The notes below the pieces were generated by a model. The model was not told the origin of the DNA. It saw only the letters and a list, made by a program, of their open reading frames with translations, and made no database searches. From IMG/VR virus record IMGVR_UViG_3300006921_000074, positions 1-31,713 of that record: DNA of 31,713 nucleotides. One strand, 5' to 3'. Positions 8,227-31,113 of the stretch are shown one piece after another; the stretch's first letter is position 1, and every line of letters begins with the position of its first letter. This stretch comes from a virus. A program made the position numbers and the translations under genes.

Positions 8227-10125
8227 TTATTCTATTATGTTTAAATTTAATAAACCTTTTTTATCACCTTTTAAAGCTCCTCTTAAATTAAATTTAAAGT
8301 TTGAAAAATTTGTTCTACCAGCAGCAAGCTCTCTTACGTACTCTTTATTTTTACCAGAATGTAGCTTCATTAAGTCACCCCATTCTCTTTTTGTAACAGC
8401 AACCATTTTTCCTTTGTTTTTACCTTCCACAGCCGGTACAATAGCATATGTGTTTTTATCGTATGGAATCTCAACGTCACCTGCTGGATAGTTTGATTCC
8501 AAGTTTTGTAAAGCGTTGTACTGTGTTGGTTGCAATTCCACCTTTTTACCACCAGAAACTTCTTCCATCTTATCTAAATATGAAATAACGTTGTTACCTC
8601 TAGCTATGTAATTTCTGTCAGACTCTACCCACGATCCGCTTCCGTCACCACCACCTTTGTTCCACCAATACCACGTTCCATTTTCTTTTTTAATAGCCGT
8701 GCCATTCATAGTGTTTAGTTCTGGTATATTATCTTCGCTACTATTCAGAGCGTCTATAGTTGGTTGGACTCTTCTTTTGAAGTCATTTGGATATAACCAT
8801 TCTTTATTAAACATTCTTCTTCCGGTTGTACCATCATCCCAATTACCGTACTGACTATCGTTATTACCTCCTCCACCGCCACTATTATTTCTTCTTTCAT
8901 TTGCTTTGTCTTCTTTTTGAAGATACTTTCCGTAAGCATTGTTCTGGTAACCTTCTACAGATTCTGAAACCATGTCAACAAGTTCTACTCTACGTGGACT
9001 TCCCTTTGAAAAATCCTCACCTTTCATTTGTTCTAATAAACCTTGAAATTTAGCATACTGAGCTTGCTCTTCAGCTGTTCCTTGCGCATTACCAGGTTCA
9101 GCGCCACCATCAACCAAAAGTTTATACGCGGGTGTTACTCTTGTTAATTCACCATTTTCACCTATCATGGTTACTTGTCCACCAAATAAAAAACTTCTTA
9201 CCTGGTTTTCATTTGCTTTAGAAAACCTACCGTTTAACTCCATCTTTAGTTTAGAAGTAGATTCTTGATCTATTTCAAAACCATCTAATCCAGATTGCTC
9301 GTGCTTAGTTAATAGATCCATGTAACCATCTTGTAAAGAATCATCTTGCTCTCCAGGGAACTTAACCCTTGAAAATAACGTTGCTTCTAATTCTGGTGCT
9401 TCTTGTTGGCTTGCCCAATCTTCGTACGAGGGCATTTGATTATCTTCAACTCCTTCGCCACCTAATTCATTCATTGCTTTTTCGTACGCTTCTTCACTAG
9501 TATCAGCTTCAGCTTGAGACATGTAATATATTTCTCCTGTTTCATCATCTATAGATAAATTCTCTAACATAGTACCGTTTGCTAATCTAACACCGTTAGT
9601 AAACTCAGGCTCTGTAGCACCAGCATTCCAACCCGTAACAGCAGTGTTATTAAAAGGTTTTTCACCAAGCTCTATCATACCATTATCAACTTGCTTTTGC
9701 ATTTGTTCTTGCACGGCTAACAAGCCTTTTTTCATGGTATTCATTTTGTGAAAAGCCATGTCCATCATTAATTGACCCTCGTTTTTTCTTTTTCTAGTAA
9801 GGCCTTTAGTAGACATTCTAGCACCTTTGTCATATTCAGCTTTGTACAAATCTAAACTAGCCTGCATTTTAGGAGTTAATTGGCCGCCTAACTTTTCTAT
9901 CTCCATTTGTATCTGAGAATTACTAGCTCTTCCTAATGTTTTTAAACCTTTAAGCTCAGCGTGATTTTGCTTGTATCTATCTATAACATAAGAACCGGCT
10001 TTCATAAATAGTTGATCAATTAAGTCAACTCTACGGTCCTTATTAACATTTTCAGCATCGATCTGAGAATTGTAACCTGCACGGTACAACCCTTCCATAT
10101 CTATTATGTTTTTAGTATTTGCCAT
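8227..10125 (-). CDS. Putative internal virion protein (632 aa), unrecognised
   Basis: The start is ATG in an AATAATATGG context, 15 bases after the stop of the 263-residue gene. The 632-residue product is hydrophilic and mostly helical in its first ~180 residues, which are rich in Lys, Gln and Met. The middle is acidic (about residues 200-310), and a Gly/Asn-rich linker follows near residues 410-430 (NNSGGGGGNND). A Trp-rich stretch (GTWYWWNKGGG) follows. No signal peptide or membrane segment is visible, and I recognise no catalytic motif. It lies between a Gln/Ala-rich protein and the Gly-zipper protein. That set of three or four consecutive proteins resembles the internal-core/ejection block of podoviruses, so a virion-internal role is inferred from position only. 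Nothing suggests a tape-measure protein: there is no long regular coiled coil and no tail sheath or tube genes nearby. Confidence 0.7.
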   Translation of the reverse strand: MANTKNIIDMEGLYRAGYNSQIDAENVNKDRRVDLIDQLFMKAGSYVIDRYKQNHAELKGLKTLGRASNSQIQMEIEKLGGQLTPKMQASLDLYKAEYDKGARMSTKGLTRKRKNEGQLMMDMAFHKMNTMKKGLLAVQEQMQKQVDNGMIELGEKPFNNTAVTGWNAGATEPEFTNGVRLANGTMLENLSIDDETGEIYYMSQAEADTSEEAYEKAMNELGGEGVEDNQMPSYEDWASQQEAPELEATLFSRVKFPGEQDDSLQDGYMDLLTKHEQSGLDGFEIDQESTSKLKMELNGRFSKANENQVRSFLFGGQVTMIGENGELTRVTPAYKLLVDGGAEPGNAQGTAEEQAQYAKFQGLLEQMKGEDFSKGSPRRVELVDMVSESVEGYQNNAYGKYLQKEDKANERRNNSGGGGGNNDSQYGNWDDGTTGRRMFNKEWLYPNDFKRRVQPTIDALNSSEDNIPELNTMNGTAIKKENGTWYWWNKGGGDGSGSWVESDRNYIARGNNVISYLDKMEEVSGGKKVELQPTQYNALQNLESNYPAGDVEIPYDKNTYAIVPAVEGKNKGKMVAVTKREWGDLMKLHSGKNKEYVRELAAGRTNFSNFKFNLRGALKGDKKGLLNLNIIE

Positions 10126-10140
10126 ATTATTTTTTTGTAA

Positions 10141-10932
10141 TTACCAACCAAAGGTTCTTTGTCCCCAGTTTTTATTAGCTTCTTTATTTGCGGCATCAGC
10201 AGCGTCTTTTCCAGATATTAACTGTAACATTCCTTGTTGATGTTGTAATTGTGTATTTCTAAAATCATTAGCAGCTTGGTATTGCAACGCTTGATTTGCC
10301 GTGGATGCAGATTGATTTGATTGTGCTGCTGCTAATTGTCTACCAGCCAATGCTTCTGCCGCAGCATTTTTAGCTGTTTGTTGATCTGAAGCGCCTTGCA
10401 TTTTCATTTGTTCAGCCGCGCTTTGACCTTGCATTTGCATTTCTCTTCTTCTTTGCACATCTTGTGCGCCAGCAACTCTAGCTTGTTGATTAGCTGATTC
10501 TTGTTGACCTATGCTAGCTGACGCTTGTTGTCTTCGTTGTGAACCTGCATTAGCCATAGCTTGGATATTACCAGCGTTAAAACCACCACCACCTCTCATT
10601 GCATCTAGCATGTTAGCTTCTTGTTGCATACCCATTTGTTTTTCAAACTGAGCTTGTCCTTGATTTACAGTAAGATCTTCTGCAAAATTCTCCATGTTCA
10701 TATTTGCAAAAGCATTCTTTGAATCCGCAAACATGTTTTCAAACTTTTGTCCTTCTGCTCTTTTAGCGCCTATACTTGTAGGTCCTTTAACGTCAATTTG
10801 CTTCATATCTTTACCCATGGCCTCAAAATCTTTCATAGCATCATCAAAAGCTTTACTTGTAAAAGGAGATTTTTTAGGGTTTTTATAAGGACTTGTTTTA
10901 TATCTAAACGGTGTTGGTTTGTTTATCTTCAT
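10141..10932 (-). CDS. Small Gln/Ala-rich putative internal virion protein
   Basis: This 263-residue protein has a basic, Pro/Lys-rich N-terminus (KPTPFRYKTSPYKNPKK). From about residue 85 a long helical region follows, dominated by Gln, Ala and Met (for example QQARVAGAQDVQRRREMQMQ), with a short GGGG break near residue 115. The C-terminus ends in NWGQRTFGW. Small Ala/Gln-rich helical proteins at the head of the ejection block are typical of podovirus internal virion proteins (compare T7 gp14), so this may be the first ejected protein or an adaptor for the inner core. The similarity is in composition and place, not in a recognised motif. It lies 43 bases after the 556-residue gene, one of the larger gaps in this stretch, and that gap is simply AT-rich. 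Confidence 0.7.
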   Translation of the reverse strand: MKINKPTPFRYKTSPYKNPKKSPFTSKAFDDAMKDFEAMGKDMKQIDVKGPTSIGAKRAEGQKFENMFADSKNAFANMNMENFAEDLTVNQGQAQFEKQMGMQQEANMLDAMRGGGGFNAGNIQAMANAGSQRRQQASASIGQQESANQQARVAGAQDVQRRREMQMQGQSAAEQMKMQGASDQQTAKNAAAEALAGRQLAAAQSNQSASTANQALQYQAANDFRNTQLQHQQGMLQLISGKDAADAANKEANKNWGQRTFGW

Positions 10933-10975
10933 AATTGTATTTTGTTATTTTATTATTACAGTTTTTACGTGTTTT

Positions 10976-12646
10976 TTAAGCGTTGTTAGTTATAGTTAGG
11001 AATCTATCAACGTTAAGATACAGCGTTCTAGTGTAATCACCTATGTTGTTTACTTCAATTTCACCGGTTATAGTAATTATTTTAGCAGCATTAGTAAACG
11101 TTAACGTTTGTCCATTTTGAACTTTATGACCACCAGGTGTTAATGTTAAGTTTGTACCAGTACTACTAGCTATTGTTGTAACAATTGGATCACCACCACT
11201 GTTATCAATATTAACACCGCTAACAACGCTGACATCATCCATTATACCATCTTTATTGTCCACGTCAAAATCATTTAAAGCAGCAGAACCAGTAGCACTA
11301 ACATCATCAATAGTAGCTGTAATAATATTAGCGTCTAGTATTTCTGCTTTTAAATTTGTAAATATTATTTCACCAGCCCTACTTGTTTCTTTTATAGCTT
11401 GAATACCTTGATTTAAAAAAGAATAATTAGTGGCTGTAAATTCAGCCCCTATAGGTGTTGAGAAACATATGTTACCAGCCTGACTAGTAATTTTACCATT
11501 TGTATCAAAAGTTGGTACGCCTGTAGGTTCTATAGCTTTTAAGTTTGCAAGTGGTAAATTTTTTTCAACCATTTCAAAGCCACAATCTTTATCTACGTAT
11601 TGCTGTATAGTTGTGTTTCTTGTGTAAGACCCAATAATAGAACCACCGCCATTTGAAGAAGGATGCACCATTGATCCAGGTCTTATGTCTATTATATTAT
11701 TAGCAGGGAACCTATAACGTCTAGGCGGTGTAAAAGTTAATGTTGTATCGTTTGCTACAGTTACGTTTTCCGATACAGTAAACACTTTTGCGTTTGAACC
11801 AACATCAACGTGTGTAATAGTAACAGCGTTGTCTTTTGTTTTAGCATCTAGCTCAGTATTACCGGTTACTCTATCTCCAACAGCCCAAAAAGTACTTCTA
11901 TCATCAACCATAGTAATGTTTGTACCTTCACTAACCCCACCACTAGAGCCAACGTCTTTTGTGCTTCTAGCTGATCCATCAAATTGATCTTCACCTGGTA
12001 TTGCTGAATGAGCAGAAATACCTACAACTGATGCGGTTAAAAAGTCATCAGGTAGTGGTTGTCTGTTTATTCTTATAGCATCTTTTGCGTCACCAGTTAT
12101 AGTTAGTGTAAAATTATTTTTAAAAGAACCTCTAGCACTAACAGATCCTACGGTTACAGCTGACATAGTTGGCCAAGCTGATGGTTCGTTAGCGCTATAC
12201 GGCTGTACAAACCAACTTATAGCAGGGCCTTGTGCAATTGTTTTAACAAGGTTTACACCGTTAGAACCAATAGAAGAGTTGTCATCAACAGCGCCTACGT
12301 AACCGCTGTCTTCAAATCTTACTTCTTGATATGGAACATGTTTAGTTGTAACACAATTATCTGATATAGCTGTTAATGTTAATGTAAGACTATCAAATGA
12401 TTTTCCAAGACTAACAGCGTCTCTAAAAACTATATAGTTATCGTGTTTTTCTTTTAGCATTTCTACTCTAAGTACTTTTCTTGTAGATGATATAGATCTT
12501 GATTTAAAATCGTAGTAACCATACAAGCTTTTTACTTCCAGCTCAAACTTAGCGCCAATATCACCTACTATATTAAAAGTTCTTCTTTCGCCACTAACCA
12601 ATACACCAGATGTATCTATGTTAAACTCTTTTATAAACTTTATCAT
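10976..12646 (-). CDS. Beta-rich tail or surface structural protein
   Basis: This 556-residue protein has high Thr, Ser, Val, Asn and Gly content and no signal peptide. The N-terminal ~120 residues (GERRTFNIVGDIGAKFELEV and onward) look like a compact beta domain. Later parts have Ig-like or beta-sandwich character, with runs such as FTLTITGD, VFTVSENVTV and TLTLTPG, and an Arg-rich turn PPRRYRFPANNIIDIRPGS. It directly follows the small 129-residue virion protein and precedes the internal-protein block. This fits a tail fibre, head fibre or other virion surface component. Assignment as a virion structural protein is moderately safe from context; the exact position on the particle is not known. 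The start context is AT-rich (ATTAAAATG), with no Shine-Dalgarno sequence. Confidence 0.7.
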   Translation of the reverse strand: MIKFIKEFNIDTSGVLVSGERRTFNIVGDIGAKFELEVKSLYGYYDFKSRSISSTRKVLRVEMLKEKHDNYIVFRDAVSLGKSFDSLTLTLTAISDNCVTTKHVPYQEVRFEDSGYVGAVDDNSSIGSNGVNLVKTIAQGPAISWFVQPYSANEPSAWPTMSAVTVGSVSARGSFKNNFTLTITGDAKDAIRINRQPLPDDFLTASVVGISAHSAIPGEDQFDGSARSTKDVGSSGGVSEGTNITMVDDRSTFWAVGDRVTGNTELDAKTKDNAVTITHVDVGSNAKVFTVSENVTVANDTTLTFTPPRRYRFPANNIIDIRPGSMVHPSSNGGGSIIGSYTRNTTIQQYVDKDCGFEMVEKNLPLANLKAIEPTGVPTFDTNGKITSQAGNICFSTPIGAEFTATNYSFLNQGIQAIKETSRAGEIIFTNLKAEILDANIITATIDDVSATGSAALNDFDVDNKDGIMDDVSVVSGVNIDNSGGDPIVTTIASSTGTNLTLTPGGHKVQNGQTLTFTNAAKIITITGEIEVNNIGDYTRTLYLNVDRFLTITNNA

Positions 12647-12659
12647 TTTAATATTTTTA

Positions 12660-13049
12660 TTATTGACTACTTATAGCTACTGAAGATCCAACAGCAAACA
12701 ACTCTGCTTCAATCTTACTATTATTAAACATTTTAGCCTCTGCGTAATATCCAGTAATACCAGAGGTATTTGCTTGTTTGTTTTTAGAAAACATCATAAA
12801 ACCGTTAGAAGCAATAACTGGCACTGGCATAGTTCCATGATTAACTATTAATGATATTGGTATTGAAGAGTCTAAGCCATCACCATTAACAACAGAGTGA
12901 ACTGTACCAATATATACTAAACCAGACATGTTGCCTAAAAATAATGTGTTTGCAGAGTCTTGAGCTATTGTAGACGTGGTGTATATATCATCACCTACAT
13001 CACAAGATATGTTTATTGGATCGTTAAAAGTTATTTGTACAAAAGCCAT
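12660..13049 (-). CDS. Small virion-associated protein (129 aa), function unknown
   Basis: This 129-residue, beta-rich protein starts MAFVQITFNDPINISCDVGD and ends with a stretch containing GYYAEAKMFNNSKIEAELFAVGS. I associate proteins of this general form with the structural clusters of marine phages, but no function is known to me. No signal peptide, membrane segment or catalytic motif is visible. It sits 22 bases downstream of the giant tail protein and 13 bases upstream of the 556-residue protein, so it is probably co-expressed with them and may be a decoration or tail-fibre-associated subunit. The function is inferred from position only. Confidence 0.7.
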   Translation of the reverse strand: MAFVQITFNDPINISCDVGDDIYTTSTIAQDSANTLFLGNMSGLVYIGTVHSVVNGDGLDSSIPISLIVNHGTMPVPVIASNGFMMFSKNKQANTSGITGYYAEAKMFNNSKIEAELFAVGSSVAISSQ

Positions 13050-13071
13050 ATGTTTTTATTTTAAGTTTATT

Positions 13072-16000
13072 TTATAAGGGTAAAAGCAATGGTCCACCTA
13101 CGCCCGTACCTCCACCGCTATGTGTCCCGTCACAGATAGTGCAGTCACCAGATCCACCTTGGTTTACTGGCGTTATCTCACAACAACTACCATCGTCCCA
13201 CATAGCTCCAGAGTCATAGCTTTTTTTACCAGCTTGATAAGCAGGATTTGGAGCTTGGAGTAAACCACCTATGCTAGATGGGACAGGGCAGGCCCACGGT
13301 TTAGTACATCCACCAACCATAACGTCTGTGTGTCCGTAAGCGCTAGGATGAGCTTGTCCTTGGTTAAAACCTGAGCAATTAATAATATTGGAGTTAGGGC
13401 TATTAAAATAATTAACTCTAAAACTAGGATATGTATTTGGATAATTTGGGAAACACGAAAATCCAGTAGCCGCGTAATCATCCGGAAACACACAGCATTC
13501 AGACCATATATTATCGTTTATTCTCCAATCACTACAACCAGATGATATAGATGCAGTACCAGCAGCCAGAGTGCTATCTGCCATTTCATATTCTTCATTA
13601 CCACTAGAGTTACCACATCTATTTTTAGGGCTAAAGTCACCAGTGTAATTACCACTTTCATCCCAACCGTTGTTGAAAAACTTTTGGAACCTCTCGCCAT
13701 CATCACCGGTGGTACCACCTTGATAACCACTAACAGGTGCTGGATTACCAGTACATGTTTGACAAGCTTGACCACCTTCAGTATAGCTTATACCACCAGT
13801 AGACGTTGGAGGTCCAATTACATTGTACGGGTTGCTTGGCCCACCAGGAGCGTTTTGATCTGCTTTTTGCATTATATGTATTTGACCCGTTGCTGGGTTA
13901 TATTTTTGAACACCAACGCCTACATATATTGGATTCATAGGAGAATCGTTGTTACGTCTATAACCTATAGCATCAAAATTTAAAGCGTAAGGATGTAAAC
14001 AACCAGAAATCCTACAACATGAATTTTGAACAGCTGGATCCCAATTATTAAAACTACCATACTTATTAATATCACCCCCACCACCTACAACTGTATTTGC
14101 TGAAGCTTGTAATGGGTTAAGACTATTGTCATCATAAAAATCTGTTTCAACCGGCCAAGTTGCAGTAGAACTAAAACTGTTTTGGGCAAAAGTAGCAAAC
14201 TCTGTCCAATTTTCATTGTAATTAAATGGATGTGTGTTAGATGCTGTTATAGCATTTCCATGATAAGTAGTCATAGTAAATACACGCGTGTTAGCGTTGA
14301 CAAAGTTATAAGGACCAGCTGTGTTAATACCTTCGTGGTATTTGTACCAATAATCAATAGTTATACTATCACTACCTTGGTTGTCTACGCAACCAGCACC
14401 GTTTCTTTCGCCAACTAAAGGTGATTGAGCATTACTGTTTACAGTATGAGTTGTTGCTATACCATCTTTAGGTATACACATTGTTTGGTCATGAGTGTTA
14501 ACGTCAAAACCAATGTTACCAGTTGGTGTTACTTTATACTGACTCCATCCTTGCACGTCGTAAGGATTACCTAGAGAACCAGAGCCATAATTATAGTTTT
14601 CAAACTCGTCTCCCGCTATGTTTGTAAAGTTTTCGTGTAAACAACCTTCTATTATAGGATAACAACAACTACCGTTATCAGTAGTAGCACTAGCGTCATA
14701 GTTTGTAGCTGATGAATCCGTACAGCCACCTGGAAGTGTAACATGTGAAGCAGCAGCAGGGTTATAATTGTAAGCACTAGGGTCTGTACAACCTTGAGCA
14801 TAGGTACAACCACAGTTAGGACCAGACGTTCCGCTTGGACACGCTGTGGCTAAGGGATCGTGATTTGTAGCCGCAAATCCCCAAGCTGTTCCACTACTAG
14901 GGTCTATACAACCACTACCTAGATCATAAACAAAAAGACCAAACTGATCAGTAGTATAAGATGGATCATTACAAAGCGTGTTATTAGACCAGTTAGTAGC
15001 AAGCCCAAGATTATTATGACCTGGGTTAGCACCACCAGTATTGTATAAACCAGTGGTATCATCCATACATCCAAACACTGGTATGTTACAACTACCATCA
15101 TCTACACAGGCCGCTGGGTCATAATTAGTAGCTGTTGGATCTGTACACCCAGCAGTGTAACAGCAAGACCCATTATCAGTGTTAACGTCTACAGCAGGAT
15201 TATTGACCAAAGGTATAAAATTAAGCGCGGTTGGATCCATACAACCTAAAATTACTGGTAAACAACAATCGTTATCGTTATTAGTGTTATAACCAGCGTC
15301 ACCTGGTAACCCGGTTGAATTACAAGGTGTGTTTGCTAGTGGATCAAAATTAAAAGTACCAAAGCTAAGATTCACTGTAAAACTTCCAAATGAATAATTC
15401 CCACTAAAGTTTGATGGGCCCAATGGAATCATACAACCTTGAACAATATACACGCAGGTATCAAACATTACTTGTGGATTACCGCCATAAACACCGTCCA
15501 TTATACTACCACCAATACCGGGCATAACAGAATATGTGTTTGGTAAAGGTCCACATTCTTGACTCATTTGACCAATGTAATTAGCTGGAGAAGTGTAAAT
15601 AGCACTTACATCTAAACAGCTTATAGGCATTCCATTTACCTCTAATTGATTTGCAGCTGTTGGATCTAAACATCCATCATACACGCAAGACCCGTTATTA
15701 GCTGCAACCGAAGCACTATAATTAGCGGCGCTAGGATCATTACAACCACAAACACCAGCGCAGTAACTAGCACAATCGTGACATGTTGCGTTAGCATCAT
15801 AGTTAGCGTTATTAATATCCATACAGCCATACACGCAAGGGATACATGAACCATCATCAAAGCAAGCTGCTGGATCGTAATTTGTAGAACTAGGATCTGT
15901 ACATCCAGCTACGTAGCAACAAGATCCGTCATCAACTGTCCATAACGCATTGTAATTAAAAGCGGTTGAATCAGTACATCCTTCGTATAAACAAGACCCG

Positions 16001-19000
16001 TCGTCAAGAACACCTATTATAGAACCTAAAGTATAATTACTTGCAGTTGAATCTGTACAACCACTCGGAAGAGCTGTACATGTTCCTGCTGTATTAGCGT
16101 TTGGATCATAGTTAAATACATCATAACCAAAATATGGTCCACCAGCAGCTTGATAACAAGCGCCTGGAGAAACCGCAGAAGGCCAACTTGGATCACCAAC
16201 AACGCTTTGATTTGGAGGAGCGCACATTCCATAAACATCAGATGATGCAGCTGGAGAGTTTATAACATTTGCCGTCATACATCCAGTTATAAAAGGCACG
16301 CAACAATTTGGACCAGCAGTACCATTAGCAACACCTAAATCATCTTGACAAGGAACGTTACAACCAGAACTACTACAATTATTAAACATCGTGGGATCAG
16401 TACAACCAACAATTAAACAGCTTCCATCATCAACATTAGCGTTTACGTTGTAATTAGTAGCGCTTGAATTCATACACCCAGGAACAGCTATTGTAGCGCA
16501 ACTTCCGTCGTCTGTAGTTGCTGCTGGGTTATACTCCACATACAAAGGATTTGTACAACCTGGTACTATAGCTGTTATAGAAAAACTAGCTACTGTGCCT
16601 AAGCCTTGAAATGAAAACTCACTTTCACTAAGATGAGAAAAACCACCTTTTTCTATACCTGTTATATAATTAAACCATTTGTTTTCTTTGTTTATAAACT
16701 CAGCAATAGCACCATCCTGCATGTCTGTTTGTATATTCGCCATATACCAACCGTCTTTATCTGACAAGTTGTAAAAATCTTTATCTGTATGGTTGAATCC
16801 TAAAGAATCTGTGTACTGAACAAATTTATTAACCTTAGATTGTGATCCTTCGTAATTAAATGTGTTAAACGTTTTTACTGAACCAGGATCGTCGTTAAGC
16901 AAAACAGTTATACTTGATTGCCCGTATTGACCATAAAAAGTATTTCTATCAACATCATGTGAGTTATGGAAATAAGCTTTACCATTTTTAAATGTAAAGT
17001 ATTTATCAGAAACACTTAAACCGCTTTCCATTTCTAAAAAAGATTTAAAACTTATCCAACCTTTATTTTCTTCTTTAAACGATACAACAACCGGTGTTTT
17101 ATAATAACCACCACCCGCTTGCTCTGATGTAAAACCAATTTTTAAGTTGTATTCATTGTTTCTAGTATCGTAGTTACCCATAATATCTACGTCAACATCT
17201 TCTTGGGTACTACCACCGTAATCACTTAATGAATCACCAGTTCTTATATTTAAAGCATCTTTAAACCAGTCTTTCATTCCGTAATCAGATATAGGTGTTA
17301 AACCATCTTGAGACAATCTTAATACAACGCTTCTCTGTTTGTCTGTAAAATAAGCTCTATAAGATTCTGATGCAAATGATTCTGGGTTTTTAGATATACC
17401 ATAATCACCACTAAAAGGTATTGTTTGACCAAGAACATTTGGTGTTGCAATCAACTGTGGGTTTCCATCAGCATTAAACACTGCGTCTTTGTTTGCTAAT
17501 ATTTTTAAAACTTTATCTTCACAAAACGTAACTAAATCTGTGTCTCTTGAAAATAATTTTTGAATACTACCATATGTTGGGTTTATATCTTTAGTTATCT
17601 TTTCAGCTTGTATAAATTGATTTAAATTGTTTACACCAGTAATAGAATTATATATACCAGAATATATTAAACCAGTTTCTCTACGTTCTTCTTTGTATTG
17701 TTCTGCTAGTGTTGTTGAGGCTTTAACACCATTTAACATGTATGGTAAATTAAAGTTATCTCTAATTCTATTTGATTCTACTCCGTTGGCAAAAGAATAA
17801 GCGTTAAAGTAAGGTAAACCAAATTTAACTTTTCTTCCTAAAAATGATCTAAATGCTAAATTGTTTTCACTTGTATTTATTCTTAAAGCATGAGACTTGT
17901 TTAACGTTGGGTAAACACCAGGGTTTAAATAATAAGCATCTATTATATAATCAATACTTATAGGTTCAACCTTAGTTCCATCTGGCTTTTCAACCACTAT
18001 ATCAAAAGGAGTGGCTGTTAAATCATCACCAGCAGGTGTAGCTGCTGCTGTACTAGTCGTTATACCACTTACTACTACCCAAGAGCTATCAACTAACAAC
18101 ACGGGTCCAAGACTACCACCTGGATCTAATATAACATTATCAACAACGAGAGGACTTGTGATTATTATTGGCGCAGCTGTTCTTTCTGTTATAATAGAGT
18201 TATAAGAAAATAATGTTTGCAACGATGTTTTTGATAAACCTACATTAGCGCTATCAATTTTAAGAGGATTTAATCCACCAACCTCGTAATATATGTCTAG
18301 CTCAGGTTGTTCTTTTGGCTCTGTCTCCCATACCGCTGGAAAATCAGGCATTACCTCTTCTCTATCAACTCTTTCAATCCACTCTAGTGTATAACCAACA
18401 GCGTACATGGTATTTCTACTATGAACCTGACTAGAGCCGTAATTGTTAAAGTTTTGCTGTTGTGATTGCATTTTTTCATAATTATCACAATATGTTGGTG
18501 ATACCATGTTCATGCTGGCTTGTCTAAAAGTAACATCAGACCCAGGTTCAAAAGGGTTTGTTAAAGGTCCACCAATATTACCAGGGATTTCAAGTGTTTT
18601 TAAAGGCCATTTATAACCAACTAAATAAACTTTATATTTGTTTAAACTAGTTATATATTCTATTTCTGATATAACTAAATATTGACCTGCTAATTGACCA
18701 CTATGTGATGTTGGTGATGTTGGCATACTATTAGTAACACTATTACTAACGTAATGAGTAACAATCATGCCTGGTCTTAATTGAGCTTCTATGTTACCAT
18801 TGTCAACATCTATGCCAACAATAGCATCAAGCATAATCCAACAATTATCAACAGTACTAGTGCTACCAGTCATACTAGCTGAAGTACCAGCGGATATAGG
18901 TAAGGTTATATTATTACCACCATCTATAGGTCCTAATGTATTTTTCACTGGATCCCAACCACTACCCATTTTAGGTGTTACATGTAAGTAATAGTATTTG

Positions 19001-22000
19001 TTAAAATTAGCTGGATAAGCTGCTGCGGAATCATTTCTACCAACACCGTTTAGTGGGCTTGCACTTGTTTCTACCGGGTGTACATATCTATTTATATTCC
19101 ACTCCCTAACGTTAGGACCAACCGTGTATACAGTTTGTGTTGGATCTTCTTTCCATCTAAACTGAGCGCCAGGTTTCATTTTGTTAACAAAATCAGCTTG
19201 ATGAGGATAATTTGGAGATCCATCACTAATGTTAAAATGCTCAGTGTTAGAAGAAGGATTTTCTGACCATATAGGGCCAAACGAAAGATTTATTCTACAG
19301 TAGTCAGGACCATGGTAATTTTCAATTCCACCACCAACCCAACCTCCTTCTGGTTGATCACCCATTTTAGAATAATTATTTGCGCCAGTTAGATCACCAA
19401 CTTCATTACCTACTAAATTTCTACCTCTATATCTACCATTATCTATAAACCAAACCTCATGCTTTTGATCTGGCTTGTATATATCATTTCCATATTTACC
19501 AGGCTCTTCGGCTGTCCACTCAAAACCGTCTCCAGGGTAAAAATGACCATTAACACCTTCTATATCTAAATCAGCACCTAAATTAGATCCTAAGGCGATT
19601 AGCGAGTTACCCATGAAATCTGTACCGGTTGTTTTCCAATGAAAATCTACAAACCAAGCCCAGAACTGTGTTTTTCTCCACCATCCAGTTGTAACACCAC
19701 CTTGACGTGTTGTGTCCATGGTGCCAGCCGCTTGCACATTAGCAGCAGTATCATGTGGCGCGGGTCCAGCTGGTGTATCGTTGTAATAATCATAAAATTG
19801 ATCGTATTCACCTGTTGCTGTTTGAGTAAAAAAGTTACCAGCGCCTAAACCGTGGTATGTTGGCAGACCAATAGCGTAATGCGGTGCTTGACTAGCTCCT
19901 AAATCCTGTACTGCGTTCCATATCTGAACGCTACCTCCAGCAAAATTAGGATCGTGCATTGACTCGTCTAAAAGATATATAGGCTTTTTAGCCATTATTC
20001 TATAATCATTAGCGCTTGCAGTGTCAAAATCTTTTGTTACATATCTATTAAATGTACCATCGTTATAAATTTTTACAAAAAACCTACCATCAAACTGTGG
20101 TCTATTTTCAACCGCATACTTCCAAAACCTTATTTCAGTAGTTTCTAGTATCTTTGTAGAAGCAGCACCAGTCGCGTCATCAGTAATAAAATTTACATCA
20201 TCGTTAAACAGCCCATCTATTGTTATGTAATAATAAGAATCACCCATTGTAACTGTACCACCTATTTCATAGTCGCATTTTATACTCGTTATTCTATATC
20301 TAGCTGAAACTTCATCTTCAGCAGCCAATCTAAAGTCAACCCAAAGTTCTACGCCAGGTCGTATTAAGTTATGTAAATCACCTCCACTATCAGAATAAAA
20401 TGGCTCGTACTTAACTTTAAATTTATAACCTCCAGTTTCAGGAGCACCAACCATAGTGCTACCAAAAAGATCTACAGCGCCACTACCACTTGTAGTGTGG
20501 ACTTTAGTAGAAATCAAAAGTTTTGTTGTTTTTACATAATCAGGCGCTTCGCTTTCTATGGCTAACACTTTATATCTAGCTCTTTCGCTAACAATATTAT
20601 CTGATCCTGTACCTTTTTTTAATATTAAAAAAGTATCTATATCAAGTTTATTTCTATCTGAAGAAGAGAACGCTAACCAAACATTACCATCTGCTGCATC
20701 ATAAAAACGATCCATAGCCATGTTGTAATACTCACCAGATGTTTCTTTTATATAAAACTTAAAATAAGCCATATTGTTTGGCCCAATAGGATTTGAAAAA
20801 GAAACACTCAGTTGATTACCTGTGAGCGCGTAAGATTTGTCTAGTTTTATAGAACCAGTATTATTAGATAACACTGGCGTTTCTCTACCATAAGCGTCTA
20901 CAAACACAACGCCTAATTGATATTCTCTAAGTGATTTTATAGTTTTTATTGGGGATGGTATACTGTTCGGTTTTTGTTGAACAGATATTTCGAATTTAGG
21001 TTGCCAGTAAGGTATGTTGTTGTCATATGGATTACCTTCTCTTAAGTTAAATTGCTGTAGATAATTAGCGTAAACAATTCTATTACCAGTCACTTCTTGA
21101 CCAAGAGCTTTTCTTGGAACATAATCCCAAGATCTTAAAAGCTGGTTAGAAGGCGTTAAAGATTTTATTGTTTCAGATGTTAGATAGTAAGATCCAAGAT
21201 CCCATTCATTAAGAGCTCCTAAAACATTAGATTTAGGCGTGTCCTTAGGGCTAATAGTTTCTACCACGTAAACATTGGTCGAAGTGTCTTCTTTATAAAG
21301 TATATCTATTTCTACAACATCTAAAGGTATATCAAAAGGAACTAATCCGTCCAAAAGTATGTCTTGAATTTTATTCGTCATACCTAGATTATAACCTTTT
21401 TGTGGATGGTTATCAAAAGCACTAGGTAAAAATGCTACTTCAGACCATGGTGCAAAAATTGAATATTCACCGTCTTCATATTTATATCTATAAGAAAATC
21501 TAGGAAACTTAAACTCATATAGTTTTGTTTCATCGTCAAATAAATCAATAACATAATTTAAATTACCAGCTCCAAAACCACCAATAGCAGATGGTGGAAA
21601 ACCGTTTATTGATTCTATTTCTACAGCAACTTTAGATCTATCTATACCCCAAACAGTAAAGTTTGCAGAGCTAGAACCGTATGAACCCGTTGTATCTTGA
21701 GTAAAGTTAGTAACGTCTACATCTAATGGAAGTGCTATGGGATCTTGGAAAGTAACAATTTTACCTTTTATACGGTAATCTCTAAGCGGCGTTGTAGGCG
21801 CCACGCCATCGTCATCAAATTCTTTTATAACTACAGTGTCACCAATGTTCCACTCTAAAGTAAAATCTGGATTACCATCTATATCGGTGTTTATACTCAT
21901 ATGTATTATATCACCAATTTGATACGGAGAAAAATCGTAATTGTTACTTACATCTGGAATTGGTGTGGCTGCATAAATATCACCAGGAACAAACAAAGAA

Positions 22001-22731
22001 GATGTGTTTGACAAAGTCCCAGGATCGTCGGTAACGTTTATGATACCAGCATATTGTTTTGAATCATCTCTACCTTTTATAGTATTAAACTGTAACGCTA
22101 ACGGTGTTGATGGTCCTCTTTTAATTACACAAACATGTTTTTCTTCTATTTGTGTAGTGGTAATATTACCAGTGTCTTTGTTCACTAACCAAGTATGCGC
22201 TGTTCCTGTTGAACCTGTACCAGCTATACTTCTTGGTATATTTATTTTTTTTGGTTCACCATAATTGTCTGTCCAAAAAAGTAAATCATCTAAAATATTT
22301 ATACCCGTTATTTGTTTTACGTAATCCGAGCTACTAGTTGGAACAGTACCTTCATCTCCAAAACCTAAAACACGTTTAGCGCCAGATCTACTAGAGTGGC
22401 TAAATAAATCAACAAAAATAGCTTCAATATTTTTATTGTTTACACTTTTTCTTAATATACAATCTTTATCTGAGCCATGAACAAACCAATACACATAATC
22501 ATTTTTTTCATCACCAATAGTAGCTACAGTAACTGCGTTGTTTGGCATTACAAAAGTAGAATTATGATGTAGTATATTTCCAAGTATGTTTTGAGCTGTA
22601 CCAACGTTTGACCCTTCTGACGTTGACACTTGTATATTCATAGCATCTCTATACTCTCCATTTGGAACAATTCTCTCGTCGAGATCTTTGTTCATTTTCC
22701 CACTAGAAAACTGGTGTTTAATATCAGGCAT
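13072..22731 (-). CDS. Giant tail hub/stabilisation protein fused to a Cys-rich repeat adhesin-like region
   Basis: This 3219-residue protein is the largest in the window. The N-terminus carries KMNKDLDERIVPNGEYRDAM followed by NIQVSTSEGSNVGT and NILGN, a signature I associate with phage tail hub/stabilisation proteins (the functional place of T7 gp12 or P22 gp10). Residues ~1-2040 are mainly beta-rich, with no membrane segment; near residue 1889 a block with GWISFKSFLEMESG and YFTFKNGKAYFHN also fits this tail family. From about residue 2058 to 3184 the protein turns into an array of roughly 20 Cys-containing units with the core GC(T/M)D(P/S)...NYDP...DDGSC, interrupted by insertions of up to ~200 residues. 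The end is a short Gly-rich tail (GGGTGVGGPLLLPL). Such repeats are otherwise frequent in secreted proteins of Bacteroidota; their function is not established. I infer a tail hub with an attached surface or receptor-contact region. It is a single unbroken frame. Confidence 0.8.
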   Translation of the reverse strand: MPDIKHQFSSGKMNKDLDERIVPNGEYRDAMNIQVSTSEGSNVGTAQNILGNILHHNSTFVMPNNAVTVATIGDEKNDYVYWFVHGSDKDCILRKSVNNKNIEAIFVDLFSHSSRSGAKRVLGFGDEGTVPTSSSDYVKQITGINILDDLLFWTDNYGEPKKINIPRSIAGTGSTGTAHTWLVNKDTGNITTTQIEEKHVCVIKRGPSTPLALQFNTIKGRDDSKQYAGIINVTDDPGTLSNTSSLFVPGDIYAATPIPDVSNNYDFSPYQIGDIIHMSINTDIDGNPDFTLEWNIGDTVVIKEFDDDGVAPTTPLRDYRIKGKIVTFQDPIALPLDVDVTNFTQDTTGSYGSSSANFTVWGIDRSKVAVEIESINGFPPSAIGGFGAGNLNYVIDLFDDETKLYEFKFPRFSYRYKYEDGEYSIFAPWSEVAFLPSAFDNHPQKGYNLGMTNKIQDILLDGLVPFDIPLDVVEIDILYKEDTSTNVYVVETISPKDTPKSNVLGALNEWDLGSYYLTSETIKSLTPSNQLLRSWDYVPRKALGQEVTGNRIVYANYLQQFNLREGNPYDNNIPYWQPKFEISVQQKPNSIPSPIKTIKSLREYQLGVVFVDAYGRETPVLSNNTGSIKLDKSYALTGNQLSVSFSNPIGPNNMAYFKFYIKETSGEYYNMAMDRFYDAADGNVWLAFSSSDRNKLDIDTFLILKKGTGSDNIVSERARYKVLAIESEAPDYVKTTKLLISTKVHTTSGSGAVDLFGSTMVGAPETGGYKFKVKYEPFYSDSGGDLHNLIRPGVELWVDFRLAAEDEVSARYRITSIKCDYEIGGTVTMGDSYYYITIDGLFNDDVNFITDDATGAASTKILETTEIRFWKYAVENRPQFDGRFFVKIYNDGTFNRYVTKDFDTASANDYRIMAKKPIYLLDESMHDPNFAGGSVQIWNAVQDLGASQAPHYAIGLPTYHGLGAGNFFTQTATGEYDQFYDYYNDTPAGPAPHDTAANVQAAGTMDTTRQGGVTTGWWRKTQFWAWFVDFHWKTTGTDFMGNSLIALGSNLGADLDIEGVNGHFYPGDGFEWTAEEPGKYGNDIYKPDQKHEVWFIDNGRYRGRNLVGNEVGDLTGANNYSKMGDQPEGGWVGGGIENYHGPDYCRINLSFGPIWSENPSSNTEHFNISDGSPNYPHQADFVNKMKPGAQFRWKEDPTQTVYTVGPNVREWNINRYVHPVETSASPLNGVGRNDSAAAYPANFNKYYYLHVTPKMGSGWDPVKNTLGPIDGGNNITLPISAGTSASMTGSTSTVDNCWIMLDAIVGIDVDNGNIEAQLRPGMIVTHYVSNSVTNSMPTSPTSHSGQLAGQYLVISEIEYITSLNKYKVYLVGYKWPLKTLEIPGNIGGPLTNPFEPGSDVTFRQASMNMVSPTYCDNYEKMQSQQQNFNNYGSSQVHSRNTMYAVGYTLEWIERVDREEVMPDFPAVWETEPKEQPELDIYYEVGGLNPLKIDSANVGLSKTSLQTLFSYNSIITERTAAPIIITSPLVVDNVILDPGGSLGPVLLVDSSWVVVSGITTSTAAATPAGDDLTATPFDIVVEKPDGTKVEPISIDYIIDAYYLNPGVYPTLNKSHALRINTSENNLAFRSFLGRKVKFGLPYFNAYSFANGVESNRIRDNFNLPYMLNGVKASTTLAEQYKEERRETGLIYSGIYNSITGVNNLNQFIQAEKITKDINPTYGSIQKLFSRDTDLVTFCEDKVLKILANKDAVFNADGNPQLIATPNVLGQTIPFSGDYGISKNPESFASESYRAYFTDKQRSVVLRLSQDGLTPISDYGMKDWFKDALNIRTGDSLSDYGGSTQEDVDVDIMGNYDTRNNEYNLKIGFTSEQAGGGYYKTPVVVSFKEENKGWISFKSFLEMESGLSVSDKYFTFKNGKAYFHNSHDVDRNTFYGQYGQSSITVLLNDDPGSVKTFNTFNYEGSQSKVNKFVQYTDSLGFNHTDKDFYNLSDKDGWYMANIQTDMQDGAIAEFINKENKWFNYITGIEKGGFSHLSESEFSFQGLGTVASFSITAIVPGCTNPLYVEYNPAATTDDGSCATIAVPGCMNSSATNYNVNANVDDGSCLIVGCTDPTMFNNCSSSGCNVPCQDDLGVANGTAGPNCCVPFITGCMTANVINSPAASSDVYGMCAPPNQSVVGDPSWPSAVSPGACYQAAGGPYFGYDVFNYDPNANTAGTCTALPSGCTDSTASNYTLGSIIGVLDDGSCLYEGCTDSTAFNYNALWTVDDGSCCYVAGCTDPSSTNYDPAACFDDGSCIPCVYGCMDINNANYDANATCHDCASYCAGVCGCNDPSAANYSASVAANNGSCVYDGCLDPTAANQLEVNGMPISCLDVSAIYTSPANYIGQMSQECGPLPNTYSVMPGIGGSIMDGVYGGNPQVMFDTCVYIVQGCMIPLGPSNFSGNYSFGSFTVNLSFGTFNFDPLANTPCNSTGLPGDAGYNTNNDNDCCLPVILGCMDPTALNFIPLVNNPAVDVNTDNGSCCYTAGCTDPTATNYDPAACVDDGSCNIPVFGCMDDTTGLYNTGGANPGHNNLGLATNWSNNTLCNDPSYTTDQFGLFVYDLGSGCIDPSSGTAWGFAATNHDPLATACPSGTSGPNCGCTYAQGCTDPSAYNYNPAAASHVTLPGGCTDSSATNYDASATTDNGSCCYPIIEGCLHENFTNIAGDEFENYNYGSGSLGNPYDVQGWSQYKVTPTGNIGFDVNTHDQTMCIPKDGIATTHTVNSNAQSPLVGERNGAGCVDNQGSDSITIDYWYKYHEGINTAGPYNFVNANTRVFTMTTYHGNAITASNTHPFNYNENWTEFATFAQNSFSSTATWPVETDFYDDNSLNPLQASANTVVGGGGDINKYGSFNNWDPAVQNSCCRISGCLHPYALNFDAIGYRRNNDSPMNPIYVGVGVQKYNPATGQIHIMQKADQNAPGGPSNPYNVIGPPTSTGGISYTEGGQACQTCTGNPAPVSGYQGGTTGDDGERFQKFFNNGWDESGNYTGDFSPKNRCGNSSGNEEYEMADSTLAAGTASISSGCSDWRINDNIWSECCVFPDDYAATGFSCFPNYPNTYPSFRVNYFNSPNSNIINCSGFNQGQAHPSAYGHTDVMVGGCTKPWACPVPSSIGGLLQAPNPAYQAGKKSYDSGAMWDDGSCCEITPVNQGGSGDCTICDGTHSGGGTGVGGPLLLPL
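13180..16560 (-). repeat. Degenerate Cys-rich protein repeat array (about 20 units)
   Basis: On the minus strand the frame encodes successive units such as GCTDSTAFNYN, GCTDPSSTNYD, GCMDPTALNF, GCTDPTATNYD and GCTDSSATNYD, most ending in DDGSC or DNGSC followed by another Cys. Typical units are ~20-25 residues (about 63-75 bases), but several are stretched by long insertions (for example between the GCLHENF and GCLHPYA units). At DNA level the plus strand shows recurring blocks such as ggatctgtaca and ccatcatc. The units are similar but not identical, so this is an old, diverged coding array and not a recent exact duplication. The acidic Asp/Asn-rich ends could bind calcium, which is inference. 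Confidence 0.85.
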
Positions 22732-25919: not shown

Positions 25920-27425
25920 TTACTTCATCAACATAAAGTTGTTAGCACCTTGTGTAACTAAACATCTTTCAGTTAAGAAGTGCATTTGCATCGCGTCAAG
26001 CGCTGATGTAGCTGCACCAACAGAACCAGTAACCCATGATTTCATTTTTCTATCATCAGTTTGTGAAGCTCTGTATCTAACATGTAAGAAAGGACGTTTA
26101 AGGTTCTTTCCTAATGATTGATCATAAACAGTAGACGTACCAGCTGGAACCATAATACCTCTGATAGCGTTAGCGCCAGCAGTAGCATTAATACCACCTC
26201 TTGTAGCTTTGTCGTTTAAGTATCTAAAGTCAGACTTGTAGAAATCGTAAGATCCACGTCTGAAACCAGAGAAACCTAAGTTTAATGCCATATCTTCAGA
26301 GTTGTCGAACACTCCGTAAGAAGTACCACCAGCTCCGTAAGAATTCATAGAAGCTAACATGTCATCTATAGCAAGAGAAGTTCCTCTATTTACAAACATC
26401 ATGTTTTCTTCAATAGCACCTTGAGAATCAAACTCAGCTAAGATGTCATCGAACTCAGCTAAATCAGTAGCTGCGCTAACACCTTGAATACCAGAAGTAA
26501 TATTACCTCTTGATTCAATAGCAGCGAATAAACCTTCAGTACCAACATCAGTAGCGGCAGCTGATCCGTTTAACCAAGCAGAACCATCTAAGTCAGAAGT
26601 ACTATCTGTTTTTTCTGCTTCAAGCATTGCCATTTCAATATAGTCATTAAAACGAGCTCTAGTATCAGACTCAGCTTTTAAGTACCATAAGTAACCTGAT
26701 TTACCATCTTCAGACGCAACTTCAACCCAACCAATTCTTGAAACGTCAGATCCAGATACTTCGTAGTAATCTTTCATTATAATTGGTTTGTTAGAGAACG
26801 TAGTGAAGTCTGGCTCGTTAGCACCTCTAGTATCAACTTGAGTTCCAGTACTTGTTCTGTAGCTATCTGCTTTACCGAATTCAGAACCAAAAACTAATAT
26901 AGTTGATAACCCAGCTCCAGGTCCATTTTGTAAATCAACTCTACCGTTGTTGTAAGGAGCTACGTCTATAGTTGTTGCACCTACAGCACCAACTAAACAT
27001 TTAACAACTCCGTTTACAGAGTCAGAAACGATAATCATATCGTTAACTCTTATAGAGTGACCAGCAGCGTTTAATGCTCTACCATCAATGTCAGTAGTAA
27101 GTGTAATTCGTGAAGACGCACCACCCGCAGCTCCCATAACTACACCACCTGCTGTAGCTACAGTTCCTTTATAAGATAAGTGTAATCTACCTTGCTCTGA
27201 CCAAATAACTTGATCAGCAGTCATAGATTCTTCAGCCCCAACTTGAGATAAGAAACCTGAAATAGTTCTAGGTCCGAAAACCTCAGCTTCTTTCTCCATT
27301 AGGTCTGGTACATATTGTTGTCCCCAACCGCCTGCGCCGTTAAGGTCTAAGTAATTTGTTGCTAGCGTTTGCTTAAAAGGAGCAGGAACGCTATTTAACA
27401 AAGCACCAGGATTTGATATTGCCAT
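25920..27425 (-). CDS. Major capsid protein (probable HK97 fold)
   Basis: This 501-residue protein is of typical capsid size and follows the probable scaffold gene. The N-terminal region has the segment VFGPRTISGFLSQVGAEESM followed by WSEQGRLHLSY, which I associate with major capsid proteins of marine tailed phages. The body is Gly/Ala/Ser/Thr-rich with balanced charge. The C-terminus ends LTERCLVTQGANNFMLMK, also typical of such capsid proteins. A region near residues 95-165 resembles an inserted beta domain, possibly surface exposed. The gene order portal, scaffold, capsid is the standard head module. The gene is followed by a strong terminator, which would let it be expressed as the end of a transcript at high level. 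No sign of truncation. The fold is inferred from family knowledge. Confidence 0.85.
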   Translation of the reverse strand: MAISNPGALLNSVPAPFKQTLATNYLDLNGAGGWGQQYVPDLMEKEAEVFGPRTISGFLSQVGAEESMTADQVIWSEQGRLHLSYKGTVATAGGVVMGAAGGASSRITLTTDIDGRALNAAGHSIRVNDMIIVSDSVNGVVKCLVGAVGATTIDVAPYNNGRVDLQNGPGAGLSTILVFGSEFGKADSYRTSTGTQVDTRGANEPDFTTFSNKPIIMKDYYEVSGSDVSRIGWVEVASEDGKSGYLWYLKAESDTRARFNDYIEMAMLEAEKTDSTSDLDGSAWLNGSAAATDVGTEGLFAAIESRGNITSGIQGVSAATDLAEFDDILAEFDSQGAIEENMMFVNRGTSLAIDDMLASMNSYGAGGTSYGVFDNSEDMALNLGFSGFRRGSYDFYKSDFRYLNDKATRGGINATAGANAIRGIMVPAGTSTVYDQSLGKNLKRPFLHVRYRASQTDDRKMKSWVTGSVGAATSALDAMQMHFLTERCLVTQGANNFMLMK

Positions 27426-28695: not shown

Positions 28696-31113
28696 TTACT
28701 CCATGCTTACTGGACCTAAATCAAAGCTACTGCTGTTTAAAGCTTGGCCGCTTTCAAAATTTTTAGGTGGTTTTCCAGTTTGCCTTTGATCAATCATCTC
28801 GCTTTGTTGAGACGCTTGAATCTTTGTTCTTTCATCTTTACGATCTTCTTTTTCTTTCTCTCTTAATTGTACACCTTGAACCTCCATGCCTTTTAGTTGC
28901 ATATTCATTTGGTGTTCAAATAATAATATTTCTTTTTTCATTTGATGATCTGAGTTTGATTTTTTAAAATCAAGCTCTGCTTTTATTTGTTCTAATTGAG
29001 CTTGTGATTGCATCATCATTTGGTTTTTTTGCATTTCAGCTTGAGCCTGTGCTTGAGCGGTTTGTTGCTGAGCTTGAGATTGAGCTTGTATATTTTGTTG
29101 TTGTAATTGCTGATCTCTATCTTGTTTTTTCTTTCTTCTTATTTTCAACAACTGATTAGCAAACTTAATATTGTTAACATTTCTAAGGTCAATAGCATCT
29201 TCAAGCTCTATACTTTGTTGTTGCAATGCCATTTGTATATTATTTTCTAGCATCATTTTTTCTTCATCATCAGGTAATAGCTCTATAAATATACCAAAGT
29301 CATACAAATGTAACTCAGACATTTCTTCTAAAGTCGCAACGTTGTGAGCTCCTATAGCTTGAATGAAAGCATCTTTAGTAGGTGAATACTCTATAATATC
29401 AGATATTCTAAGAGATAAACACTCACATGTTTCAGATGTTAAAAATAAACCAGCGTCTAATATATGTCTTGTTGCTGTGTTACTATTTGCGGCTGCTAAT
29501 TTTTGCACGCCTACCAAAGCGTTTTTATCTGGCATACTACCATCTCTAGCCTCATTAAGACCAGTTACATCTCTTATCATTTGCAGATAATAGTTATAAT
29601 TACCTATAAGAGCTTGCATTTTTTGACCACCGCTACCACTAGATATTTCTTGAATAGGTATCTTACCTGGATTCATATCACCATCAGAAGTAAAACTCCT
29701 TCCAATAACAGAACCTGTTTGGAAGAACATGTTTAAAGCTTCCTGTGGATTGTAGTTAGTTCCATTACCTAAATCAACCTCTGCTAAACCATCCGCATCT
29801 AAGTAAACACCATCAGGCACCATACGTGACATTACTTGTTGTAACTTTAAATGTGTTAACTGTATCATATCAGCAAAACCAGTAATTCTACTAACTATAG
29901 ATTCAATTTTACCGTTGTACATTCTAGGCGCAACAATAGCATAGTTCATTTTAACTTTAGTATAATCACTTTTAGGTCTTATCATGTTTCTTGACATTTC
30001 CCATTTAAGTAATTTTTCAGAACCAAGAACCATAGCGCCATCAAACAAACATTCTATAGTTCTAGAAATTCTACTATAACTACCTTCTTTATTTTGTGGT
30101 GGATTATAATTATCGTCTTTGTTTATTATTTTATCAGCTCCAGTGCCAGTTTCTTTTACCTTATAAACTTCATTCATGTAAGTTTTAAAATTAAAATATA
30201 AAACTTGAACTTTGTTATTATCGTTCTCTTGATTTGAGTGTCTAATAGAACTATTGTTTCTATTAAAAGTTCTTTTTCTAACTACTTCTTGTAAATCTTC
30301 TTCTGTTAAATGTGGAAATTGTTTTGCTAATTCATTTATAGGTAGTTCTTTAACCTCACCAACATAATATATATCTTCAAAATAAGGAGAGTCAGAATGT
30401 GAATACACTAGGTCTGCTGGATCAACATAATCTATTACAACACCTTCAGATGTGTTAAATGAAGTTTTTACAGCACCAATACCTAAAACCGCTAAATCAT
30501 AATAAAAACGTTTTTGTACTAAATCGTAATTATTGCCTCGCATTAAAACGTTTAAAGCTTGTTCCTCTGCTATTTCTACAGCTTGTTTGTATGTTAGCTG
30601 CATGTGTAGTTTTAATTCCTCTTCTGTTTCTGGTATTTTATCAGGATCATTTTCTTCTAAAGAAATACCAAAAGCTTGACTAGCTGCTTTATTAAATTCT
30701 TTTGACCTCATGTCTCTTAATAAAGATTCCATGTATTCTGTTCTTTTTTCAACACCAAATGGATCTTGAGAATAAGCTTTTATATCGTACATTCTGTTTG
30801 TCATACCATTTACCACGATATCAACAAATTTAGAAATTATTGGAACTGGTGTCCAGTCTAAATTTAAGTAAGACAAGTCACCGTTTATAGATAGTTCGTC
30901 TTTATATTTTTGTGTAGATTGTTCTCCTCTAGCATATAATCTTAAATTATGAAAATTATTGCTACTGGTTTTATGTCTATTGTGTGTTTTGTCATTATTA
31001 AACCATTCAGCCGCTATAGCTTTTCCAACTTTTAAACCATAGTCGTGGCTCAACTTTTCAGCATCGCTAACGGTTTGACTTGGAAAAAAACTTCTAATAC
31101 CAGAGTGTGCCAT
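28696..31113 (-). CDS. Portal protein
   Basis: This 805-residue protein starts two bases after the terminase stop. The N-terminal half has the segment LNLDWTPVPIISKFVDIVVN, then GMTNRMYDIKAYS, which I associate with portal proteins of this phage type, and the body is of mixed alpha/beta type without membrane segments. From about residue 660 to 770 it becomes an extended Gln/Ala/Met-rich coiled coil (QQQNIQAQSQAQQQTAQAQA ... EMQKNQMMM), then a short disordered end (SSSFDLGPVSME). A long helical C-terminus is common in portals with an internal barrel. Its place between terminase and scaffold is canonical for the DNA-packaging vertex. Size (~90 kDa) is at the upper end for portals, close to those of podoviruses. 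No frame damage is seen. Confidence 0.85.
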   Translation of the reverse strand: MAHSGIRSFFPSQTVSDAEKLSHDYGLKVGKAIAAEWFNNDKTHNRHKTSSNNFHNLRLYARGEQSTQKYKDELSINGDLSYLNLDWTPVPIISKFVDIVVNGMTNRMYDIKAYSQDPFGVEKRTEYMESLLRDMRSKEFNKAASQAFGISLEENDPDKIPETEEELKLHMQLTYKQAVEIAEEQALNVLMRGNNYDLVQKRFYYDLAVLGIGAVKTSFNTSEGVVIDYVDPADLVYSHSDSPYFEDIYYVGEVKELPINELAKQFPHLTEEDLQEVVRKRTFNRNNSSIRHSNQENDNNKVQVLYFNFKTYMNEVYKVKETGTGADKIINKDDNYNPPQNKEGSYSRISRTIECLFDGAMVLGSEKLLKWEMSRNMIRPKSDYTKVKMNYAIVAPRMYNGKIESIVSRITGFADMIQLTHLKLQQVMSRMVPDGVYLDADGLAEVDLGNGTNYNPQEALNMFFQTGSVIGRSFTSDGDMNPGKIPIQEISSGSGGQKMQALIGNYNYYLQMIRDVTGLNEARDGSMPDKNALVGVQKLAAANSNTATRHILDAGLFLTSETCECLSLRISDIIEYSPTKDAFIQAIGAHNVATLEEMSELHLYDFGIFIELLPDDEEKMMLENNIQMALQQQSIELEDAIDLRNVNNIKFANQLLKIRRKKKQDRDQQLQQQNIQAQSQAQQQTAQAQAQAEMQKNQMMMQSQAQLEQIKAELDFKKSNSDHQMKKEILLFEHQMNMQLKGMEVQGVQLREKEKEDRKDERTKIQASQQSEMIDQRQTGKPPKNFESGQALNSSSFDLGPVSME

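Follow-up and report, generated by a model that had tools for sequence, protein, structure and literature searches.

The window, that is, the whole 31,713-nucleotide stretch of viral DNA analysed here (IMG/VR record IMGVR_UViG_3300006921_000074), carries a set of genes of crassvirus type, comprising a portal gene (phrog_6547), a terminase gene (phrog_6681) and genes matching phrog_13704, phrog_13977 and phrog_14543. The product of the phrog_13704 gene is probably the major capsid protein. Also encoded is a 3219-residue protein with a C-terminal array of short cysteine-containing units (Table 1).

Table 1. Coordinates of the features discussed; positions refer to the window unless a record handle (L) is given.
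Feature	Position	Strand	Evidence or remark
Portal protein, crassvirus type	28696..31113	-	phrog_6547, E 7e-152
Virion structural (head and packaging) protein	25920..27425	-	phrog_13704, E 1e-94
Crassvirus muzzle (tail nozzle) protein, 3219 aa, C-terminal repeat array	13072..22731	-	PF25729, phrog_14478, fold match 7qok
Muzzle body, conserved, aa 1-2044	16600..22731	-	79 IMG/VR relatives; 31% identity to Cellulophaga phage phi38:1
crAss_MUZ_C domain, aa 1928-2023	16663..16950	-	PF25729, E 1.7e-8
Array of 15-19 GC..DDGSC units, aa 2051-3183	13183..16581	-	Inserts of up to ~200 aa between recognisable units
First unit, sub-type GCTNPLYVEYNPAATTDDGSC	16498..16581	-	Also in phage T9SS-type proteins and host proteins
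Best-preserved run, three consecutive units, aa 2216-2296	15844..16086	-	
Three-unit segment used for AF2	15760-15981		Opens with units 2 and 3 of the best-preserved run
N-terminal 232 aa of a signal-peptide protein of ~365 aa, outer-membrane-barrel-like	1..696	-	Homologues in relatives
Homologues of the 365-aa protein	L349 11167-12247; L350 11166-12260; L351 10430-11527; L352 10622-11713; L354 11547-12623		
Phage DDGSC repeat genes	L144 1719-4484; L350 13423-15723; L351 13937-15823; L352 6680-8557; L353 13438-17301; L354 13709-16576		Signal-peptide-like start and array
Outer-membrane-like, 94-aa, 109-aa and DDGSC genes together	L363 (G410:C32:5000-24000) 9501-14186		
Muzzle split in two adjacent ORFs	L013 8001-17200; L061 7998-16823		Array on the second ORF
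Small ORF with array	L066 13579-14418		Overlaps muzzle end
Marine group III euryarchaeote protein	L257 2030-5497	-	7 regular units
518-aa frame of Marine virus AG-345-P14	L364 3586-5139	+	MH319765; three units
Viral proteins of ~570-630 aa	L127 7492-9243; L105 883-2763; L139 7949-9697; L179 4992-6764; L181 6627-8333		Two units near residue 330-400

The carrier of the array is a crassvirus muzzle (tail nozzle) protein, homologous to gp44 of phicrAss001. Its crAss_MUZ_C domain scores above the Pfam family cut-off, the frame matches phrog_14478 (E 1e-119), and other Flavobacteriaceae phages match its body in addition to phi38:1. An AF2 model of residues 1625-2044, made with an alignment from 48 relatives, has a low pLDDT (53); compared with the whole PDB, it best matched the phicrAss001 muzzle entries 7qok (Z 9.8) and 7qol (Z 9.7), followed by nozzles and tail proteins of podoviruses (phages Pa223, VP1, GP4 and T7). 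Profile and single-sequence searches of the PDB with the muzzle sequence gave no match, and the counterpart there was seen by fold alone. Given that residues 14-418 of the model align to residues 118-1343 of the 1361 residues of gp44, the array starts about where gp44 ends. The initial annotation had described the carrier as a tail hub, a name which in crassviruses designates gp38/gp39 (PMC10172136); it is instead the muzzle. Pfam revealed neither PF18962 nor CHU_C in this frame and no BACON family among its matches up to E 1, and no signal peptide was apparent by eye. A search of host genomes with the muzzle profile returned no match, a result that says little as a positive control was absent.

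The array is confined to the C-terminal part of the protein. Of its 81 cysteines, 74 lie after residue 2056, and the motif [DN][DN]GSC occurs 10 times in this tail compared with 0.02 expected from shuffles (maximum 1), an enrichment of approximately 400-fold, and is absent from the residues preceding 2056. With a profile made from relatives, 15 units were detected at i-E<0.001 and 19 at i-E<0.05, whereas each of 200 shuffled tails yielded at most 3. The initial placement at 13180-16560, with about 20 degenerate units, was thus borne out, as was the wide variation in their spacing: intervals of 22-28 aa make up half of the total, and 42% are longer than 35 aa, so that many units contain long loops or have other sequence between them. 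The unit comprises 21 aa, GC[TM]DPTAxNYDPxATxDDGSC, with two cysteines, and 159 distinct units of relatives gave the consensus GC[TM]D(P/S/A)(T/N/S)AxNY[DN]PxA[TN]xDDGSC. The commonest spacing is a linker of 5 aa (186 cases), i.e. a period of 26 aa. At the DNA level, TRF found no tandem repeat. No model in Pfam, PHROGs or NCBIfam matched the repeat region, and the literature searched contained no description of the DDGSC motif.

Structure prediction, which had been suggested as a check, was applied to the unit: the AF2 model of the three-unit segment (62 aligned rows) has a pLDDT of 91, reaching 95-96 over the first two units. Each unit would be closed by a disulfide between its own two cysteines, as suggested by their number per unit and by the extracellular use of the module. 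One counterpart was identified in the PDB, a lone unit of perforin-2/MPEG1 (6u23 and 6u2k; sequence search E 3e-4), which was also the sole, weak Foldseek match of the unit model (E 3.5, 21 columns, rmsd 0.9 A). In MPEG1, this unit is located where the EGF-like domain meets P2, which corresponds to a hinge or spacer.

The same unit is common in surface proteins of marine Flavobacteriales. A codon-level pattern of the unit was found in at least 100 stretches of genome contigs among the matches listed, mostly from marine Flavobacteriales; Saprospiraceae, Candidatus Neomarinimicrobiota and a few archaea also appear among them. Within the order to which one marine Flavobacteriales MAG belongs, 55 of 148 genomes carry arrays at E<=1e-10, often in 20 or more places, compared with 9 of 198 genomes sampled across Bacteroidota that match the three-unit profile, the phylum count being made at the looser cut-off of E<=1e-6. 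Example host array proteins have signal peptides, and some carry T9SS sorting domains. As had been expected, secreted proteins of marine Bacteroidota thus often contain the unit, and the profile search of host genomes that had been proposed did reveal similarity to host proteins. This includes a sub-type, GCTNPxYxEY...DDGSCxTL, common to the window muzzle (aa 2058), phage secreted proteins and host proteins, which supports a common ancestry of the modules, with transfer possible in either direction.

Units were also observed in other settings. The euryarchaeal protein carries its regular units beside cupredoxin and PKD domains. The only GenBank phage record matching the array is MH319765, classed in Kyanoviridae, in which Ig-like repeats, identified by eye, follow the three units. 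Among the viral proteins with two units, that of L127 has no signal peptide by eye.

Many viral contigs matching the unit pattern encode separate proteins, 600-1400 aa long and containing up to 27 units, that have a signal-peptide-like start. Part of these proteins carry PF18962 or CHU_C, and some combine a T9SS sorting domain with a MAM domain. A crassvirus portal is present in 20 of the 48 records with such proteins. Conversely, of 39 related records selected by their muzzle, at least 23 have a separate repeat gene, a count of non-muzzle open frames of which several are partial at contig ends and some may match through the units alone. PF18962 scored above its cut-off in 9 of 50 records, and also in L103, L119, L354, L196 and L130, so that a recognisable T9SS tail is established for a minority; the T9SS tail of many homologues falls below this cut-off, and signal peptides were judged by eye.

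The neighbourhood of the repeat gene is partly conserved. In the typical order, a large protein of 2-3.4 kaa is followed by a 365-aa outer-membrane-like protein, a 93-aa membrane protein, a 107-121-aa secreted protein, a few variable genes and the repeat gene. This order is kept, with variants, in 4 of the 6 records examined; G010 has only part of it, and the 365-aa gene is interrupted in one of the six. The 365-aa protein ends in Phe, like an outer-membrane barrel, and is 84-89% identical among phages, compared with 44-74% for the adjoining large protein. It had no match in Pfam, PHROGs or GenBank phages. In relatives, this protein opens the segment leading to the repeat gene. As the window stops within its gene, any repeat gene that this phage may have would lie just beyond the edge. 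Equivalent genes are found together in L363, part of a contig of 43 kb from a Flavobacteriales bin in which no crassvirus muzzle was detected; judged by eye, the contig seems to belong to another phage type.

The history of the array was followed among 79 IMG/VR loci with a muzzle body, 55 of which have complete muzzles and were used for a presence tree. At least 3 units were found in 28 of these, 1-2 in 7 and none in 20, the body being intact without units, and unit number ranges from 0 to 23. For the tree, the window was hand-labelled with 13 units; the profile gives 12 to 19 depending on search settings, which leaves its class unaffected. Array presence requires 8 changes, at least 4 of them forced by well-supported branches, compared with 18.7 in shuffles; the array has therefore been gained or lost several times, yet its presence is clustered. 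The sister L001 has a body identity of 71-73% and an array identity of 57%, mostly collinear and with one block replaced. In the more distant pairs, the array has diverged faster than the body, with body and array identities of 81 and 66%, 76 and 37%, 72 and 52%, and 71 and 57%, whereas pairs with at least 86% body identity have similar or nearly identical arrays. Such faster divergence would be expected for a surface-exposed part. Some relatives have fn3 domains mixed into the array. In L013 and L061, the muzzle itself is divided between two reading frames, and in L066 the array occupies a frame of its own.

These data qualify the initial proposal of ongoing gain and loss. The range in unit number and the forced changes agree with it, whereas the collinearity of arrays in close relatives does not, and rapid turnover was rejected at short range on the same grounds. 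The best explanation is that the clade has gained or lost units on several occasions, but slowly. Acquisition of host modules, which had also been suggested, left no compositional trace of a recent event: GC3 is 0.229 in the array, 0.201 in the muzzle body and 0.18-0.26 in the neighbours, and the higher GC of the array stems from codon positions 1 and 2. The proposed check for positive selection likewise showed no sign of it on average. Selection on the array is on average purifying (dN 0.24-0.37, dS 1.0-1.9, dN/dS <0.4 on average), these values being averages without site models and with saturated dS.

With regard to function, we infer with moderate confidence that the array supplies the nozzle with host-type modules of putatively adhesive or reach/spacer function. 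On this reading, the marine crAss-like phage bears the array as an accessory appendage at the C-terminus of its hexameric muzzle, with modules drawn from a pool common to host surface proteins and phage-encoded secreted proteins. The disulfide within each module would form after release from the cell. Since gp44 is a hexamer, there would be six array chains per nozzle, presumably hanging as long strings of rigid beads from the propeller region. They may make a first, multivalent contact with the surface of marine Flavobacteriales, or hold the nozzle there, while the crass-fold tip triggers ejection. The link to the host, the shared YxEY sub-type, the faster divergence of the array and the BACON precedent (see below) all speak for an adhesive role. 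On the other side, the core of the nozzle has its C-terminus close to the barrel, in the propeller region and away from the cell-contacting distal tip, and the array lacks an arms-race signature, given its dN/dS and the collinearity in close relatives. The propeller-side position is an argument against direct triggering and a point in favour of a tether or collar. As half of the clade lacks arrays (20 muzzles with none and 7 with 1-2 units), the array is dispensable for the core function of the muzzle.

In a distinctly less probable reading, the array serves as a passive coat or disulfide-stapled spacer, which stiffens or shields the nozzle and carries insert loops, while the units themselves bind nothing specific. 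The hinge or spacer position of the solved homologous unit in perforin-2 speaks for a structural role and against one in binding. The occurrence of units in very different proteins, the average purifying selection and the admixture of fn3 domains in some relatives are in line with this, and the inserts, with about 42% of window intervals above 35 aa, could be the active parts. Nevertheless, a passive spacer would not need a unit that is otherwise specific to host surfaces, and Ig and fn3 domains are open to phages.

The second repeat gene raises further possibilities. One host-type module could be used twice, as an appendage of the nozzle and in a phage-encoded protein that the type IX secretion system (T9SS) of the host would export to the surface of the infected cell, within a gene set common to different phage types, the second copy blocking or decoying the contact made by the first; we regard this as rather unlikely. 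It also appears unlikely that the muzzle array sticks homotypically to host proteins built from the same units, with the secreted phage protein competing for them and causing superinfection exclusion. This would account for the sharing of units between the muzzle, host T9SS proteins and the secreted phage protein (at least 23 of 39 records, with a T9SS tail in some), for the gene order kept in 4 of 6 records with variants and partly in the others, and for the recurrence of the genes in another phage type. However, co-occurrence of the two arrays is limited to some of the records; several others have the secreted protein and no muzzle units. Moreover, muzzle and secreted units are barely more alike within a record (0.444) than between records (0.432; 4 records, permutation p 0.045), which gives no clear signal of matched co-evolution, and self-association of the units is hypothetical. 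Finally, near-neutral accretion of a promiscuous marine module with little function, at a C-terminus where extensions are tolerated, would fit the scattered occurrence of arrays on the tree, with its roughly 8 changes, the arrays on a separate ORF (L066) or split muzzle (L013 and L061) and the units in other marine phages, but is improbable in view of a dN/dS well below 1 over the array, the maintenance of cysteines and motif, and arrays mostly collinear at 71% body identity.

The closest known relative of the carrier is phicrAss001 gp44 (PDB 7qok and 7qol; PMC10172136), which has a homologous body with propeller region and MUZ_C domain. In contrast to the window muzzle, gp44 comprises approximately 1360 residues and stops where the array starts, and the length variation of muzzles described in PMC10172136 concerns insertions in the IG2 and crass domains rather than a C-terminal repeat array. 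Perforin-2/MPEG1 shares a 21-aa stretch fitting the unit consensus and a weak local fold match; its unit is single-copy in an animal pore-forming immune protein, and any relation by descent is hypothetical. The DDGSC-array secreted proteins of marine Flavobacteriales (for example L255 and L277) have the same unit, the 26-aa period, the YxEY sub-type and inserts within units. They differ in having signal peptides and often T9SS tails, both of which are absent from the window muzzle. Cryophage likewise encodes proteins with T9SS sorting domains, for which competition or superinfection exclusion was proposed (PMC7468147). Nevertheless, it is a different phage, and its cargo comprises endoglucanase, GH39 and PA14 domains, with no DDGSC arrays reported. 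As far as the literature searched goes, one module in both the virion and a secreted protein of the same phage has not been described, and the linked gene, resembling T9SS cargo, makes a role in surface remodelling or superinfection exclusion directly testable.

The closest precedent is that of the BACON domains, which form tandem repeats in crAssphage tail-associated proteins and are common to host surface proteins; host-surface binding was proposed for them, and T9SS-tailed proteins lie nearby in one phage cluster (PMC6949934). In both cases, tandem domains of host-Bacteroidetes type are found in or near crAss-like tail proteins. BACON is a beta-sandwich domain, to which the window unit, with its 21 aa and two cysteines, is unrelated. 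Furthermore, the DDGSC units are fused to the muzzle itself, come from a marine rather than a gut phage, and also build a separate secreted phage protein. The window thus provides a second, independent case of a crassvirus tail protein with surface modules of host-Bacteroidota type, here on the nozzle and linked to one particular lineage of marine hosts, and it does so with a unit that has no database model and yet is frequent in marine Flavobacteriales, and is also found in Neomarinimicrobiota, Euryarchaeota and perforin-2.
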